A stretch of 64,000 nucleotides of DNA from Halohasta litorea (lineage in GTDB: Archaea; Halobacteriota; Halobacteria; Halobacteriales; Haloferacaceae): the NCBI RefSeq assembly GCF_024494645.1, contig NZ_JANHDJ010000001.1:806001-870000 (forward strand), given 5' to 3'. Within the stretch, counting starts at the first letter, position 1. Each line of letters begins with the position of its first letter. Shown here one piece after another: positions 41,077-47,796 of the stretch. Both the position numbers and the translations under genes were made by a program. The notes beneath the pieces are model-generated. The model had not been told where the DNA came from, made no database searches, and worked only from the letters and a program-made list of their open reading frames with translations.

Positions 41077-41130
41077 GTTGTTCAACGGTAGGATCAGGCG
41101 TTCATTGGTTGTTGATTCGATGTCTGAAAA

Positions 41131-41205
41131 GCGCTCGGAGCGGGATTTGAACCCGGGCTGAGAACCTGCTCGCTACGTTCGCAGAACCTCAGCATGATTC
41201 AAATC
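41131..41205 (-). repeat. tRNA 3'-end-like repeat with hairpin
   Basis: On the minus strand the segment 41155 to 41131 duplicates the T-arm and acceptor end of the tRNA-Asp 150 bp away: GCGCtCGGAGCGGGATTTGA against GCGCcCGGAGCGGGATTTGA, continuing with ACCCG, one mismatch in 25. The rest does not fold into a tRNA. GATTTGAA at 41144-41151 pairs with TTCAAATC at 41198-41205 and GCTGAG at 41158-41163 with CTCAGC at 41188-41193, so it can form a cruciform. It resembles an integration (att) remnant. Confidence 0.6.
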
Positions 41206-41281
41206 CACTCTGGTTGTATCACTGAACACTGTAATCGCTCGCCGATGAAACGCCTCGCTGGAGGTTTGAGCTCGGAAAAAG

Positions 41282-41354
41282 CGCCCGGAGCGGGATTTGA
41301 ACCCGCGTCACGACCGTGACAGGGTCGTATGATGGGCCACTACACCATCCGGGC
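41282..41354 (-). tRNA. tRNA-Asp (GTC), copy 1
   Basis: Reverse complement folds as a full cloverleaf: acceptor GCCCGGA/TCCGGGC, T-loop GGTTCAAATC, discriminator G. The anticodon GTC is encoded at 41318-41320. Anticodon stem CGACC/GGTCG. CCA is not encoded. A TATA-like GCTTAAACG (minus strand) lies about 35 nt upstream. A second tRNA-Asp is at 47556. Confidence 0.95.
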
Positions 41355-41530
41355 TTGCTGCAATCATTCGTATCCGGGGGAGACGTTTAAGCCTTATTAG
41401 TTGCCCCCGCTCCGTGTGGCGATACCGTACCACTATCCTGACGACTGGTCGACTTCCGTTCATCCGACTCCACTATCCCGGCGATAACTGTCGATCCGAA
41501 ACGTGGCTTCTCAGCCCGGAGTCGATGTCG

Positions 41531-42058
41531 CTAACACTGAACGGGTCGATCGAATCGGGAGTCGATATCGGTACCGGAGACGTGGACTGTGATCTCATCG
41601 GTACACGACACGCCGACAAACCGCTCCGTTCTGTGTTCTCCCGGTTCAAGCGGGCTATTTTCAGCGAGGTGTTCAGTCGTGCCACCGACACCAACTTCGA
41701 TAGCTGTGAGTTCGATTTCCGTACCGAACTGATTTCGCACCGTCAGTTCAAGTTCGGTTGTCCCGTTTGCCGTATGAATCGCTCGCTGTTCGAAGCCGAC
41801 GACCGCAGCGTTATCTCCCGCAACAGCCATCTCAACGCCACGCTCTGCGGTCACTGAACTCGCACCGCTGGCACCGATCATCATAACGCCGACCATACCC
41901 AATGTTGCCAGCAGTAGCGCCTGCCGTTTCGAGATCATTCGTTGTCGACCCATCCTGCGGTACATGTCTCTGGTTGTCTCGGATGAAGGACGGTGCGGGG
42001 AGTCGTCATCTATTTGCGTACTGTCTTGATATCCAACCACTTCAGTAACTGTCGACAT
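41531..42058 (-). CDS. Secreted DUF1102/TasA-like subunit, divergent member
   Basis: A 175-residue protein. The first 42 residues are polar, then ISKRQALLLATLGMVGVMMIG forms a hydrophobic signal, followed by ASSVTAERGVEMAVAGDNAAVVGFE. This matches the shared start of the two DUF1102 genes on the other side of the promoter region (AF.SVTA.R...VAV..D.AAYLGL). The mature part is beta-rich with two Cys residues near the end. I infer a third, minor filament or tip subunit processed by the adjacent signal peptidase. The start at 42058 is supported by a TATA-like TGTATAATAACC about 35-45 nt upstream; a shorter start at 41938 is possible. The opposite-strand frame here is taken as a shadow. Confidence 0.62.
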   Translation of the reverse strand: MSTVTEVVGYQDSTQIDDDSPHRPSSETTRDMYRRMGRQRMISKRQALLLATLGMVGVMMIGASGASSVTAERGVEMAVAGDNAAVVGFEQRAIHTANGTTELELTVRNQFGTEIELTAIEVGVGGTTEHLAENSPLEPGEHRTERFVGVSCTDEITVHVSGTDIDSRFDRPVQC

Positions 42059-42429
42059 ACCACACGTTAAGCGCTGTATACTACCACAGCGTGGTTATTA
42101 TACAGTTACTAACCTCTCGGTTCTCGGGACAATCTCGCCACCGTTCTTTCTAGACGCCTCCTAATCAGCCCACAGGCAGTATGTCTGACAACTCAACCCT
42201 GCATAATTTACTCTACAAAAGATTGTTCGACGAATGGATTGCCTAACTGACTAACAAGATTTGGGAACGTCACTATACACTCACTACCAGCTTTCGCCTA
42301 CTTTCTGTTTCATTGATAGTCTGTCCATTCCAAAGTGTGTCTCTCCCTACGGCATCAGTACGCGCCGTAAAACGGGGGCGTCGATGCCTCTGGCTCGAAG
42401 GCGGCGCGCAATACGAGGTAAGACAAACC
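42059..42429. promoter_or_regulatory. Divergent control region of the filament genes
   Basis: A 371-bp AT-rich space between the leftward gene at 41531 and the rightward operon at 42430. CTGTATA at 42074-42080 pairs with TATACAG at 42099-42105, and inside it CGCTGT at 42072-42077 pairs with ACAGCG at 42086-42091. The arms overlap the TATA box for the leftward gene. No gene is seen in the rest. Confidence 0.4.
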
Positions 42430-42984
42430 ATGCAACGACGCAAATTTGTTGTCGGAGTTGGATCGCTTGCTGCCAGTGGGGCAGCCGCAATGGGTACCGG
42501 GGCGTTTACGAGTGTCACCGCGAGTCGGAACGTCGACGTGGCCGTGGCCAACGATTCGGCGGCCTATCTCGGACTCAGCAGCACCGGTGGTGCGAACGAA
42601 GAGTACGTCACGGATGACGGCTCATCCGGAACGCTGAGTATCGACCTCGACGCCGGCCAGAGCGTTGCCGGGGGCGGTGACGGTGTCAACCCCAACGCAC
42701 TGACGGAGATCGATCACCTGTTCCAGATCACGAACCAGGGCACACAGTCGGTCGATGTCAGCCTCTCGAAGTCCGGGGACAACACCGACCTGATCGGCTT
42801 CTACGCGGTCGACAGTTCCTCGGTGAGTGATCCCTACAGCAATGGGACACAGCTCGGTTCGGACAGTGTCACACTCGACGCCGGTGAGAGCGTCGTCGTC
42901 AGTCTCCAGATCGACACGCGCGGGTCCGGACTCGGTGACAGCGCCGAGATCATCTCCGGTGTGACGATCAGTGCGACTGCCTAA
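42430..42984 (+). CDS. DUF1102/TasA-like secreted subunit A
   Basis: A 184-residue secreted protein. Signal: QRRKFVVGVGSLAASGAAAMG, ending at GTGAFTSVTASR, where SipW-type peptidases cut. The mature domain is beta-rich and begins VDVAVANDSAAYLGLSS, a DUF1102 hallmark; the conserved 'GVNPNALTEIDHLFQITNQGTQSV' motif follows. DUF1102 lies in the wider TasA/camelysin/archaeal bundling pilus group whose subunits join by donor-strand exchange. Followed 5 bp later by a paralogue. I infer a filament or surface-coat subunit. Confidence 0.8.
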   Translation: MQRRKFVVGVGSLAASGAAAMGTGAFTSVTASRNVDVAVANDSAAYLGLSSTGGANEEYVTDDGSSGTLSIDLDAGQSVAGGGDGVNPNALTEIDHLFQITNQGTQSVDVSLSKSGDNTDLIGFYAVDSSSVSDPYSNGTQLGSDSVTLDAGESVVVSLQIDTRGSGLGDSAEIISGVTISATA

Positions 42985-42989
42985 CAACG

Positions 42990-43529
42990 ATGAACAGACG
43001 AACATTCGCGGTGAGTCTCGGTGCGCTGGTCGGCGGCGGCGCGGCGATCGGCACCGGCGCGTTCAGCAGCGTCACCGCCGAGCGCGATTTCGATGTCGTC
43101 GTCTCCGGTGACGCCGGTGCGTACCTCGGATTACAGTCCCATCCAGGACCGAACGGGGCGTACGCCGATACGACACCACAGGACACGCTCGGGGTCGACC
43201 TCACCGATAGCAACTCGAATATCGGCACGGCCATCAGCGGCGGCGAGGGCGTCAACGCTAACGCGCTGTCGACGTTCCTCAACGTCTTTCGGATCACGAA
43301 CCAGGGGACTCAAGCGATCGATGTCGAAATCGATCCACTCGTGTTCCTGGAGACGGAGCTCCCACAGTCGCTTTTGGGCGTCGCTATCGTGCCAGCGATC
43401 AACAATCCGATCCGCCTGACGCCGGGCGATGATCAGGACTTCCACCTGATCGCCTTCTCGTTCGAAGCCGACGGCGAACCGGATCTGCGTGTCGACGAAC
43501 AGATCGAAATCACTGCAACGGAGGCCTAA
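42990..43529 (+). CDS. DUF1102/TasA-like secreted subunit B
   Basis: A 179-residue paralogue of the preceding gene: signal NRRTFAVSLGALVGGGAAIG, cleavage region GTGAFSSVTAER, then FDVVVSGDAGAYLGLQS and GEGVNANALSTFLNVFRITNQGTQAIDV. The two differ most in the central loop and C-terminus. The close spacing (5 bp upstream, 3 bp downstream) indicates one transcript with subunit A and the 41-residue gene. Confidence 0.8.
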   Translation: MNRRTFAVSLGALVGGGAAIGTGAFSSVTAERDFDVVVSGDAGAYLGLQSHPGPNGAYADTTPQDTLGVDLTDSNSNIGTAISGGEGVNANALSTFLNVFRITNQGTQAIDVEIDPLVFLETELPQSLLGVAIVPAINNPIRLTPGDDQDFHLIAFSFEADGEPDLRVDEQIEITATEA

Positions 43530-43532
43530 CCG

Positions 43533-43658
43533 ATGGCACCAACACTCGACGATTACATCGACGAATCCGAGACGTACGATGCGGATGATGCCGCTGAAAT
43601 CCCGAACGACCTGCGGGCGGAGATCGATACGAACATAGACGACGCACACTCGTCGTGA
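43533..43658 (+). CDS. 41-residue acidic protein
   Basis: An ATG 3 bp after subunit B opens a 41-codon frame, MAPTLDDYIDESETYDAD and so on to a TGA at 43656. It is strongly acidic (about 15 Asp/Glu), has no signal or hydrophobic segment, and is flanked by in-operon genes with tight spacing. A cytoplasmic factor for subunit expression or export is possible. No family recognised. Confidence 0.55.
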   Translation: MAPTLDDYIDESETYDADDAAEIPNDLRAEIDTNIDDAHSS

Positions 43659-43795
43659 GAGTTGCTTCCTGGTGGGGGCAACAACACCGTATTTCGCCTG
43701 CGCACCGGTGGTAACCACCACCGAACCCCATTTCGGCCGTGCTACAATGGACTGTTGAGCGACACCAAACCACAAGCCTGTTTCATACGTTATCA

Positions 43796-44959
43796 ATGAG
43801 TACCGAAGAACCCGTTTGGCGTGTTAGTATCACCATCGCGATCGTCGTTATCCTCGCTTTGGTTGCCGGGCAACTACTCGGACAGCCGGTGTTGCTCTCC
43901 TACGTCGAAACCGAAAGTATGTCGCCGACGATGGAGCCCGGAGACGGATTCGTGCCGATTCCGGTACAAATAGCTGGCCCAATTGAGGAAGACGATGTCG
44001 TCGTTTTCGAGGCCGAAGAGCTCCACGGGGGTGGACTGACGACCCATCGTGTCGTCGACGAAACCGAACGCGGCTACATTACGCGCGGTGATGGGAACCC
44101 GTTTACCGATCAGGACGGTGATGAACCCCCGGTACGGGAGCCACAGATCGTTGCGAAGGCACTGCAGGTCAACGGGCAGGTCGTTGTGATCCCGGGGTTC
44201 GGCACTGGTGTCGAACGAGTCCAGTCCGTGTTGGATACGACACAGCGACAGTTGGCCGCAGCACTCGGTGTCCGATCGCTCGTCGACACCCAGACGCTCG
44301 CCCTCTCGTTTTTTATCGGGACGCTACTCTGGTATGTGGTCGGTGAACGCCGTGATAATCTCCCGGAGCGGGCTGGCCGGGGTACATCCCGAGAGACTGG
44401 ACTCGATACACGTGTTCTCGTTGGTGGCTGTGCCCTGCTGTTGATCGTTACTGCGACCGTGGCGATGGTTGCACCGGCCGGAACCCACGAGTACGGCATC
44501 GTGAGTGCGAGTTTCGAGTCCGACCAACCCACCGTCATTCCACAGGGCGAATCAGCCGACGTGGCATACCCCGTCGACAACGGTGGCTTCATCCCGACCG
44601 TCTCCTATATCGAACCCGCAAGCGAGGGTGTTGCTGTTCGGCCACACACCCTCACTGTCCAGCCACGAGCGACCGAGACAGCGACCGTCCAGTTGGATGC
44701 TCCAAGCGAGACCGGCTACTACCGACGGTATGTTACCGAACACAGGTATCTCGCCGTGCTTCCGGAGCCGGTGATCCAGAGTCTGTACGTGATCCACCCG
44801 TGGCTCCCGATCGCGGCCATCGACGCACTGATCGGCGGTTCCTTCTATCTATTCGGCCGCATACTTGTTGGCACAGATCGGCTCCGAATACGGACGCGAA
44901 GCCGTGAGGTCCCGGTGTCGACGCACCTCCGTCGGCTAGTAAACAGTCTCTACCGATAG
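43796..44959 (+). CDS. SipW/ER-type signal peptidase I with C-terminal domain
   Basis: A 387-residue membrane protease. After the N-terminal helix (residues 8-28) the catalytic region reads ETESMSPTMEPGD, with Ser41, and THRVVDE with His84 in place of the bacterial Lys, then TRGDGN with Asp99: the Ser-His-Asp arrangement of ER/SipW-type enzymes. SipW matures TasA and TapA in Bacillus. Here residues 185-387 form an extension with helices near 187-203 and 225-247, an exposed beta-rich stretch of about 100 residues, and a last helix near 345. That is about twice the length of a plain archaeal signal peptidase. The ATG at 43796 is chosen; a longer frame lacks homology. Confidence 0.85.
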   Translation: MSTEEPVWRVSITIAIVVILALVAGQLLGQPVLLSYVETESMSPTMEPGDGFVPIPVQIAGPIEEDDVVVFEAEELHGGGLTTHRVVDETERGYITRGDGNPFTDQDGDEPPVREPQIVAKALQVNGQVVVIPGFGTGVERVQSVLDTTQRQLAAALGVRSLVDTQTLALSFFIGTLLWYVVGERRDNLPERAGRGTSRETGLDTRVLVGGCALLLIVTATVAMVAPAGTHEYGIVSASFESDQPTVIPQGESADVAYPVDNGGFIPTVSYIEPASEGVAVRPHTLTVQPRATETATVQLDAPSETGYYRRYVTEHRYLAVLPEPVIQSLYVIHPWLPIAAIDALIGGSFYLFGRILVGTDRLRIRTRSREVPVSTHLRRLVNSLYR

Positions 44960-45025
44960 TAATCCGCCCCTAACGGGTGTAATGGTTCGAATAACTAAGC
45001 TAAACAGGATTAATTAACAACCAAT

Positions 45026-46186
45026 ATGGATGACTGGCGACGCCGCGCTCGGGCCGTTCTCGACAATCAGTTCGTTGTTGTCTGTGCGGTGCTTCTCGGG
45101 TGTGTCCTTGTGGGTGGGTGGCTGACGTATACGGCACACGTTGGGGCCGCAACGACGACCGAACAGCAGTCGACGGTCTCATGGGAGCAAACCGGGGCGT
45201 TCGATCATTCGGCGACCGTTCAAGAAGACAACTCCCTGTTTCCGGTCGGGACGACCCTCGAAAACCGATCAGTTTACTACACCCGTCTCTCGCCGGAACT
45301 CGATGGGACGTTCCGGACTACGTACGACGCGCGTGAGAGCGGCGACCTCGATCAGGACGTGTCGCTGTCGCTGGTGCTTCGGGAGGTCGATCCCGACAGC
45401 GAGGGCACCGAGCCGACGGTCTACTGGCAGACGAGTAGCGCCCTCGACGACGCGACTGTCGAGTCAGTACCTCCTGGAGAGCCCGTTCGTGTCTCGTTTT
45501 CCCAGGATATGAGCGCGGTCACCGAACGGATCGGCCGAATCCAGGAGGAACTCGGTGGCTCCACCGGCGAGGTCGAGGTGTTCGTTCGGGCGACGATCAC
45601 TGCTCAGGGCAAGATCAATGGCGATAGCGTCGACGAGACGGCGACCTACACCATGCCCGTGACAGTCAGTGACACGACCTACAGCGTCACAGACGCCGAA
45701 CCGACGGTCGAATCCTACGAGACCACACGGCCGGTGACCGTCGACCGGAACGATCGCCCGCTCCGGAGCGTCGGTGGACCGCTTTTGCTTGTGGTTGCGC
45801 TGGGGCTGCTCGGTGGCGTCGTCCGTTCGGATCGATCGACACTCTCGGAGACTGAACGGGCGAGACTGGCCTACGAGGACGACCGCGAGACGTTCGACGA
45901 GTGGATCTCGACGATCGAACTCCCTTCGGAGGCGTTCGAACTCCCACAGGCCGACGCCGACTCGCTGGCTGGATTGGTCGACTTCGCCATCGATACCGAC
46001 AACAGCGTCATCGAAGATCCGGACGATGACGCCTACTACGTCCGCCACGACGGCTATCTCTACTGCTACCGACCGCCACGGACCGATAGTGACGACGGTG
46101 AAACGACCGATAGTGTCGACTCCGAGACCGAGTCGACCGACGGAACCGAGTTGGACGAGGGTGGCATCGGTCCCGACGACCAGTGA
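45026..46186 (+). CDS. DUF5305 membrane protein
   Basis: A 386-residue protein: membrane helix at 16-36, an exposed region of about 220 residues rich in beta strands, a second helix near 253-270 (GGPLLLVVALGLLGGVV) and an acidic cytoplasmic C-terminal part of about 115 residues. The exposed sequence, with SWEQTGAFDHSATVQEDNSLFPVGTTLENRSVYYTRLSP, is typical of DUF5305. Family members lie next to signal peptidase and DUF1102 genes in other haloarchaea, which suggests a role in filament assembly or anchoring. TATA-like AATAACTA at 44991-44998. Confidence 0.75.
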   Translation: MDDWRRRARAVLDNQFVVVCAVLLGCVLVGGWLTYTAHVGAATTTEQQSTVSWEQTGAFDHSATVQEDNSLFPVGTTLENRSVYYTRLSPELDGTFRTTYDARESGDLDQDVSLSLVLREVDPDSEGTEPTVYWQTSSALDDATVESVPPGEPVRVSFSQDMSAVTERIGRIQEELGGSTGEVEVFVRATITAQGKINGDSVDETATYTMPVTVSDTTYSVTDAEPTVESYETTRPVTVDRNDRPLRSVGGPLLLVVALGLLGGVVRSDRSTLSETERARLAYEDDRETFDEWISTIELPSEAFELPQADADSLAGLVDFAIDTDNSVIEDPDDDAYYVRHDGYLYCYRPPRTDSDDGETTDSVDSETESTDGTELDEGGIGPDDQ

Positions 46187-46286
46187 ACGATCACAGAATC
46201 CCGGGCGACTCCTCAGCCCAGACTCACCACATCCAATTAGTCAATACACCATAATTACTAAGAAGACATGTTCAAACTACGAACTA

Positions 46287-47510
46287 ATGGTTTCCAACAA
46301 CGGGGGTTCGGCGGACCCGACCGTGAGACTAAGTCGGCGCCAAGCCGTACAGACGCCGCTTGCTGTGGGTGCTGGCGCTGTCTGGATGACGGGCGCTGGG
46401 GCTGCCACCCCGATCTTCCAGTCGGGTGATGCCGACCGAACGTGGATTCGTACCGAACTCGTTGGACGAACCGCCGATAGCGTCGACTTCGGTGGCGACA
46501 GCGAGGCCCAAGCCGCTGCAGCGGTCGCCGACGAACTCCCCGAGACGGCCGAGCGGGACGTGATCGCCCGACTGGGGTCCGGAGACGATGGGGGAACTAT
46601 CGAAGTCGTCGACTCCGGCGTCTCAGTCGACCAGTTTGAGACTGCACTGGACGCAGGCAGCTACAGCTACGACGAGATCACCGAGGGCCTGACACAGCAG
46701 ACCCGCGACGAGTCGATCGGCGTCATCCAGACCAGATTGGCGGCCGCTGACATCGACGACGCCACCGTCCGGCAGGGACGCGACGACACCGGCCTCGTAC
46801 TCGTGATCGGCGTCTCCGGTGAGGACGCTGAAGATATTGAGGACATCCAGGACCTCATCGGCAGCCGCGGCGTCGTTCGGATCGACATCTACCACGACGA
46901 GCAGGGGGAGTACGTCACCGACGAGGGCGCGCTCACGAGCAACGATTTCCAGAGCGTCGGCTCGGCGACCCAAGGCGATCGAACCGGCCCCCATGTGCCG
47001 GTGACTGTCGAGGCGTCGGCTGCCGAGCGGTTCCAACAGCAGCTCGTCGACACAGGCGTTGCACAGGACGGTGGCTCGCGATGTACCTACGACCAGGACC
47101 CCCAGAACACGGAGCCGTGCCTCCTGGTTGTCGACGACAGCGAGGTCATCAACGCCTTCGGGATGGCACCGGGGCTCGCAGAAAGTATGCAAACCGGCGA
47201 CTGGGCTGAAGATCCGCGCTTCATTCTCACGACGAGTAGCCTCGAAGCGGCCCAGCTCGTTTCGATCAATCTACGATCCGGCCCGCTTCCGGCCCCCGTT
47301 GAGCTCTCGACGAGCGACGAGCTGCCGGTCGAAGAGTCGACGCTAGAGAACCGAGCGGTCGAGACCGAGCCGACTCCCGACACGTCTGGGGCGTCGGCTG
47401 ACGGCAGGTCGACCGACCTCGAAACCCTGGGGTTCGGCATAGGAGCCGCGATTGCCGGACTCGGCGCGGCTGGCGCGCTCCTGCGGCGACTCGGCGATTC
47501 GGATTCGTGA
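46287..47510 (+). CDS. Tat-exported SecD head-domain-like protein without channel
   Basis: A 407-residue protein with a Tat signal (SRRQAVQTPLAVGAGAVWM), no internal membrane helix, and a C-terminal LGFGIGAAIAGLGAAGALLRR tail-anchor or sorting-like segment. Residues 100-340 resemble the extracytoplasmic P1/head region of SecD: TRDESIGVIQTRLAAADI, SRGVVRIDIYHDEQGEYVTDEGALT, FQSVGSATQGDRTGPHVPVT, SRCTYDQDPQNTEPCLLVVDD, AFGMAPGLAESMQTGDW, and SINLRSGPLPAPVEL. The six-helix channel of SecD is absent. I infer an extracellular chaperone for the adjacent secreted subunits. TATA-like ATAATTAC at 46251-46258 supports the start. Confidence 0.75.
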   Translation: MVSNNGGSADPTVRLSRRQAVQTPLAVGAGAVWMTGAGAATPIFQSGDADRTWIRTELVGRTADSVDFGGDSEAQAAAAVADELPETAERDVIARLGSGDDGGTIEVVDSGVSVDQFETALDAGSYSYDEITEGLTQQTRDESIGVIQTRLAAADIDDATVRQGRDDTGLVLVIGVSGEDAEDIEDIQDLIGSRGVVRIDIYHDEQGEYVTDEGALTSNDFQSVGSATQGDRTGPHVPVTVEASAAERFQQQLVDTGVAQDGGSRCTYDQDPQNTEPCLLVVDDSEVINAFGMAPGLAESMQTGDWAEDPRFILTTSSLEAAQLVSINLRSGPLPAPVELSTSDELPVEESTLENRAVETEPTPDTSGASADGRSTDLETLGFGIGAAIAGLGAAGALLRRLGDSDS

Positions 47511-47555
47511 GTTCTTTTTATAATAGACGCGACGCTGATTCTGCCGGGTTATAAA

Positions 47556-47628
47556 CGCCCGGAGCGGGATTTGAACCCGCGTCACAACCGTGACAGGGTT
47601 GTATGATGGGCCACTACACCATCCGGGC
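47556..47628 (-). tRNA. tRNA-Asp (GTC), copy 2
   Basis: Second full tRNA-Asp cloverleaf, anticodon GTC at 47592-47594, identical to copy 1 except the anticodon stem pair 28:42, here A:U instead of G:C (CAACC/GGTTG). The change is compensated on both sides, so both genes look functional. A TATA-like CCTTATTTG (minus strand) lies about 35 nt upstream. Confidence 0.95.
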
Positions 47629-47796
47629 GAACCGTACTACAACGTCTCCCCGAGACACAAATAAGGCTTCCTTTTTGAAGGCCGCGTGGTAGCCGGTACC
47701 GAACTGGCCCAAAAGCCTATAGTAGTCGACGGCCTGCCATACAGTATCACGCCCTCCTGCGGTCGGTGAGCCGCTGGTGTCGGGCGGAGTTGGCAA

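Follow-up and report, generated by a model that had tools for sequence, protein, structure and literature searches.

A probable divergent tafi (Tat-fimbriae) locus between tandem tRNA-Asp genes of Halohasta litorea

The window analyzed here, a 64,000 nt stretch of the Halohasta litorea genome, contains a putative pilus gene set at positions 41531-47510. These genes very probably form a tafi (Tat-fimbriae) locus, a divergent example of a known system, and this is the best explanation for the locus as a whole. According to PMC12687288, which cites Galeva et al. 2025 (iScience 28:111793), the Tat system of haloarchaea exports components of thin filaments, called Tat-fimbriae or tafi, and TafA is their core component. 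NCBIfam includes families of fimbrial proteins named TafA, TafC, TafE and TafF (NF052520-NF052523). The locus described here would extend tafi pili past the members covered by these families.

Gene content of the locus

ARAGORN detects a tRNA-Asp gene on either side of the gene set, both in the same orientation. The features are the following, with protein genes counted from their best starts and with the evidence used for each:

41281-41354, minus strand: tRNA-Asp (GTC), copy 1, left edge of the insert (ARAGORN)
41531-41938, minus strand: A, divergent secreted protein of the tafi family, 135 aa (NCBIfam TafC/TafE, iterated profile)
42430-42984, plus strand: B, putative pilin with a Tat signal, 184 aa (TafE, TafA, DUF1102, 9P0A profile, fold)
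42990-43529, plus strand: C, second putative pilin with a Tat signal, 179 aa (TafE, TafA, alignment with B)
43533-43658, plus strand: acidic microprotein, 41 aa (similarity to the ORFs after C in L062 and L082)
43796-44959, plus strand: D, S26 signal peptidase of the ER/SipW type with a C-terminal extension, 387 aa (TIGR02228, SipW)
45026-46186, plus strand: E, DUF5305 membrane protein (PF17231)
46287-47510, plus strand: F, secreted protein similar to SecD P1 (NF006215)
47555-47629, minus strand: tRNA-Asp (GTC), copy 2, right edge, the insert abuts the 3' end of the tRNA (ARAGORN)

The secreted proteins

When the whole window is translated in six frames, the motif [ST]SVTA-x-R appears exactly three times, once each in A, B and C. 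In B the Tat signal is MQRRKF...GTGAFTSVTA, and the N-strand of the mature protein is SRNVDVAVANDSAAYLGL. In C the signal is MNRRTF...GTGAFSSVTA. The corresponding region of A, which is encoded in the opposite strand, reads GASSVTAER. A preliminary description of this DNA had proposed that all three proteins share the pattern AF[ST]SVTA. The common signal and N-strand pattern does appear in the three of them, but A lacks this exact form. That description mentioned neither the twin-arginine motifs of B and C nor the existing name tafi, under which such systems have NCBIfam families, a 2025 paper and a solved structure.

B and C can be aligned along their entire length and are paralogues. A falls into the same family once the profile is iterated. 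In an alignment of 60 proteins of the B/C type, the RR pair is invariant, and GTGAF and A-x-R vary little or not at all. The mature N-strand (residues 32-49) has a mean of 2.92 bits, most other mature segments are in the 1.7-2.0 range and residues 81-107 reach 2.73. A search of the genome collection with the single sequence of C gave no matches; an alignment-based query was needed.

The signal of A has KR instead of RR. The RR pair is absent in 23 of the 31 divergently encoded A-type proteins we have inspected, which makes a Sec route plausible, and A is probably a Sec substrate. Its NCBIfam matches are to the N-terminus of TafC (5e-9, 35.6 bits against a cut-off of 410) and to TafE (2.6e-5). 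The closest relative of A by best similarity is a divergent gene coding for 136 aa in Halohasta salina (L145). We considered whether A might be a gene truncated by tRNA recombination. This was ruled out, versions with 135-136 aa being present in Halohasta salina and Halorubellus.

The microprotein, which the preliminary description had missed, shares 44% identity (39 aa, E=3e-7) with ORFs located directly after C in two other genomes, at L062 and L082. Judged by this similarity, it belongs to the B-C cassette.

Relationship with tafi pilins

Both putative pilins match the Taf families. For B, the values are 1e-18 for TafE (67.7 bits, with a cut-off of 155) and 9e-10 for TafA; for C, they are 3e-15 and 4e-9. 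A, B and C are all under the curated equivalog cut-offs for TafA, TafC and TafE, so we do not claim that B and C are orthologues of TafA or TafE. One subunit also matches DUF1102, a Pfam family of unknown function.

A profile derived from 60 proteins of the B/C type has a single significant match among solved chains, PDB 9P0A (E=3.2e-30), which is the "Structure of Natrinema sp. J7-2 Tafi pilus". Along 215 aa this chain has 100% identity to L074:10389-11066, a pilin gene whose cluster also includes an S26 peptidase and DUF5305. The pilin in this structure is a homologue of B and C with the same Tat signal and N-strand and the same neighbours. It differs from them in its C-terminal half, which has diverged, and its cluster has an accessory protein with CARDB/Ig-like domains.

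The solved pilin itself falls short of the Taf cut-offs (77.3 bits for TafE, where 155 are needed). Failing these cut-offs does not exclude, then, membership in the wider family. The equivalog cut-offs of NF052520 (TafA) and NF052522 (TafE) miss even a tafi pilin with a solved structure, so many tafi pilins will go without a name when genomes are annotated.

The AlphaFold2 monomer model of B (mean pLDDT 80) was compared with PDB by Foldseek. The first match is again 9P0A (TM 0.45) and the second one is the AbpA bundling pilus of Pyrobaculum calidifontis, 7UEG (TM 0.35, E=5e-4, probability 1.00). The top five further include FimA and the Sulfolobus thread. AbpA has only 14% identity in the structural alignment, and it was not found by the sequence profile search. 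Since these TM-scores are modest, the sequence match to 9P0A carries more weight than the fold. The ranking agrees with the bundling-pilus-like filament class suggested in the preliminary description. That description had named two outcomes against it, a predicted fold lacking the TasA-like jelly-roll and the lack of conserved co-occurrence of these genes in other genomes. Neither came true, as the fold of B has 9P0A in first place and the genes do occur together (see below); TasA is nevertheless outside the top 50 fold matches of B.

Peptidase, DUF5305 protein and conserved neighbourhood

D matches TIGR02228 (6e-12) and, weakly, SipW (5e-5, 22.9 bits against a cut-off of 190). It has the Ser...His pair of the ER/SipW type. 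In its homologues, which have a median length of 386 aa, the Ser motif is found in 71/73 and [T]HR[VI] in 72/73. No solved relative of D was detected in a sequence search. E is a clear member of DUF5305 (PF17231, E=4e-56). Its order is TM helix, extracytoplasmic beta-sandwich, TM helix and cytoplasmic domain (model mean pLDDT 83). The fold of E only gives generic beta-sandwich matches (cytoplasmic domains of Kir channels, Spo0M) with TM about 0.2. These are uninformative and we have dropped any assignment of function from the fold. The signal peptidase of the SipW/ER type, the DUF5305 membrane protein and the secreted SecD-like protein had all been recognized previously from the letters of the sequence, and our family searches confirm the three of them.

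DUF5305 is present in 158 of 194 Halobacteria genomes. We have inspected the surroundings of 42 DUF5305 loci, of which 40 were sampled, one is that of the window and one belongs to another cluster of this genome. S26 is nearby in 40 of them and at least one subunit in 37. Starting from the subunits, both S26 and DUF5305 are found within 8 kb in 30/67 loci of the named genome collection. The other 37 loci do not have the pair within this distance; some are near contig ends and many are from Halorubrum. A frequent gene order is subunit (minus strand), subunits (plus strand), S26, DUF5305. The co-occurrence of subunits, S26 and DUF5305 across Halobacteria, which the preliminary description had proposed to survey, is thus a real feature.

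Clusters containing a TafA over the cut-off (L049 and L069) also hold S26 and DUF5305. In L049 the scores are 258 bits for TafA, 559 for TafC, 219 for TafE and 369 for a TafF-like protein (cut-off 420). The same two genes are found next to the 9P0A gene and in these clusters, so that, as judged from gene neighbourhood, D and E are core parts of tafi clusters. This identifies S26 peptidase and DUF5305 as a conserved module for assembly tests.

The locus resembles other haloarchaeal tafi loci in having Tat-signal beta-sandwich subunits, a divergent minor protein, and genes for S26 peptidase and DUF5305. On the other hand, its subunits are under the TafA/C/E cut-offs, and it has two paralogous pilins with a microprotein and a SecD-like passenger. 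Family searches with its six larger proteins detected neither TafF nor the DUF7344 regulator, both seen in L049. The TafC of L049 has a Laminin_G_3 lectin domain, which is also absent from the window cluster.

A second, diverged cluster of the tafi type is found in contig C31 of the same genome (L007:7499-11928). It has two Tat subunits, S26, DUF5305 and a small secreted protein, and adjoins two lectin-like proteins with Laminin_G_3. We should also note that a 3.2-kb contig labelled as a Spirochaetaceae MAG (L103) has pilin genes of haloarchaeal type; it is probably misbinned.

Alternative explanations

The preliminary description compared the locus with TasA and SipW of Bacillus. In both systems a signal peptidase is encoded together with secreted beta-sandwich filament subunits, D has some similarity to SipW, and TasA, AbpA and the tafi pilins are all beta-sandwich subunits; TasA uses donor-strand exchange for its polymerization (PMC9674648). 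The locus might then code for a biofilm matrix fibre whose subunits are homologues of TasA, exported by Sec and matured by an orthologue of SipW. We consider this very improbable. The signals of B and C are of the Tat type, not Sec, the SipW score of D is far under its cut-off, and no Pfam match to TasA/Peptidase_M73 (camelysin) is found at E<=5. The fold search also places the Tafi pilus first and leaves TasA out of its top 50. TasA as the closest relative is not supported. It is also highly improbable that A, B and C are monomeric secreted surface proteins of the DUF1102 type, which happen to be beside a general signal peptidase. The DUF1102 match, to a family whose function is unknown, would fit such proteins. 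Nevertheless, B and C have a homologue among solved pilus subunits, and the co-occurrence with S26 and DUF5305 is strong.

The role of F is a separate question, and a functional F would be compatible with a tafi locus. F matches NF006215 (E=9e-68), although only positions 59-358 of the 522 in SecD, which correspond to its first extracytoplasmic part; the membrane part of SecD is missing. It has a twin-arginine-like signal and a weak PGF-CTERM-like hydrophobic tail at the C-terminus. Its best relatives elsewhere are SecD proteins, with 53% identity to the SecD of G068, a genome of the same genus, and 48% to that of its own genome. The preliminary description included F in the assembly system. 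This part is not supported: no homologues of F were found in about 107 related tafi loci surveyed, nor adjoining any other cluster we have examined. One weak match, in L041, comes from an ORF that overlaps DUF5305 out of frame. We have rejected F as a core component because of this absence; by its distribution, F is a passenger gene. Other features of F would fit a functional part, a factor derived from SecD P1 which helps to fold pilus subunits or to hand them over outside the cytoplasm: F is directly after E, in the same orientation and inside the same tRNA-bounded insert, and its open frame, signal and hydrophobic tail have been preserved despite the loss of the membrane part. We find such a role unlikely. 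Besides its absence from other loci, the best matches of F outside its own genome, in a search of 194 genomes, have frames of full SecD size. B and C are apparently exported by Tat, which is not known to use SecDF.

Proposed mechanism

The tafi reading suggests the following model. B and C, which have RR signals, would fold in the cytoplasm before export by Tat. D, as a membrane-bound S26 peptidase, would cleave after SV-x-A. The freed N-strand, R-x-V-x-V-x-x-D-x-x-A-Y-L, may then enter the beta-sandwich of the next subunit, giving a thin filament. Such an insertion is suggested by the fold and by donor-strand complementation in AbpA, TasA and threads. In thread filaments, the N-strand is inserted into a neighbouring subunit (PMC9715654). 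The conserved mature N-strand is consistent with head-to-tail donor-strand assembly. E would most likely anchor or dock the growing filament through its extracytoplasmic beta-domain, and A is a candidate nucleator, base or cap protein. For Halohasta litorea itself, we infer that export depends on Tat, that the subunits join by donor strands and that pili are formed.

Insertion site and mixed ancestry

The two tRNA-Asp genes stand in tandem, and the cluster is an insert of 6.1 kb between them. In G068 the pair of tRNA-Asp genes is only 320 bp apart and the cluster is absent, with collinear flanks (RpoB'' is 98% identical). Homology with this genome breaks at about 41453, past copy 1 of the tRNA, and resumes at 47553, the 3' end of copy 2. 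Close tandem tRNA-Asp genes are also found in G054, G075 and G006. In G122 (L157) there is a different insert between them, with 2.5 kb. Since other genomes have empty or close pairs and one of them has another insert, the tandem tRNA-Asp site (41279-41395 and 47553-47669) seems to be a hot spot for insertions, although the window insert has no evident integrase. In the tafi reading, the cluster was inserted between the tRNA genes and F is a passenger. An association with tRNA is not a general tafi feature, and we have rejected this idea: a tRNA is near about a fifth of the loci, which is close to the background estimated from the number of tRNA genes.

Different genes of the cluster have different relatives. 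In the tree of E, the sister is the DUF5305 protein of Halohasta salina (support 100/98), and grouping E with L062/L082 is rejected (p-AU 1.6e-4). In contrast, both B (support 98/92) and C (100/91) cluster with L062/L082, and a group of B plus the subunits of Halohasta salina, Halorubellus and Halobonum is rejected (p-AU 9e-7). Similarity searches preceded the choice of groups for these AU tests, and the B/C tree contains some rows with long branches. The relatives of the microprotein are in the same L062 and L082. By best similarity only, A is nearest to Halohasta salina, and D to G122 and Halorubellus. The conflict between the B/C and E trees points to a separate origin of the cassette and the DUF5305 gene: according to the trees, the B-C-microprotein pilin cassette and the E gene have different histories.

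This mismatch suggests an exchange of pilins around a machinery that remains in place. If so, the specificity of DUF5305 and S26 for heterologous pilins would be directly testable. A more elaborate proposal is a modular pilus, in which cassettes with two pilins and a microprotein pass from one lineage to another and join a resident processing and assembly module. A repurposed SecD P1 protein would be an additional, lineage-specific assembly factor outside the cytoplasm, and the microprotein would serve its own cassette as a chaperone or regulator. Taken as a whole, this proposal is improbable.

An extra tRNA-like fragment of 29 nt is found at 41127-41155.
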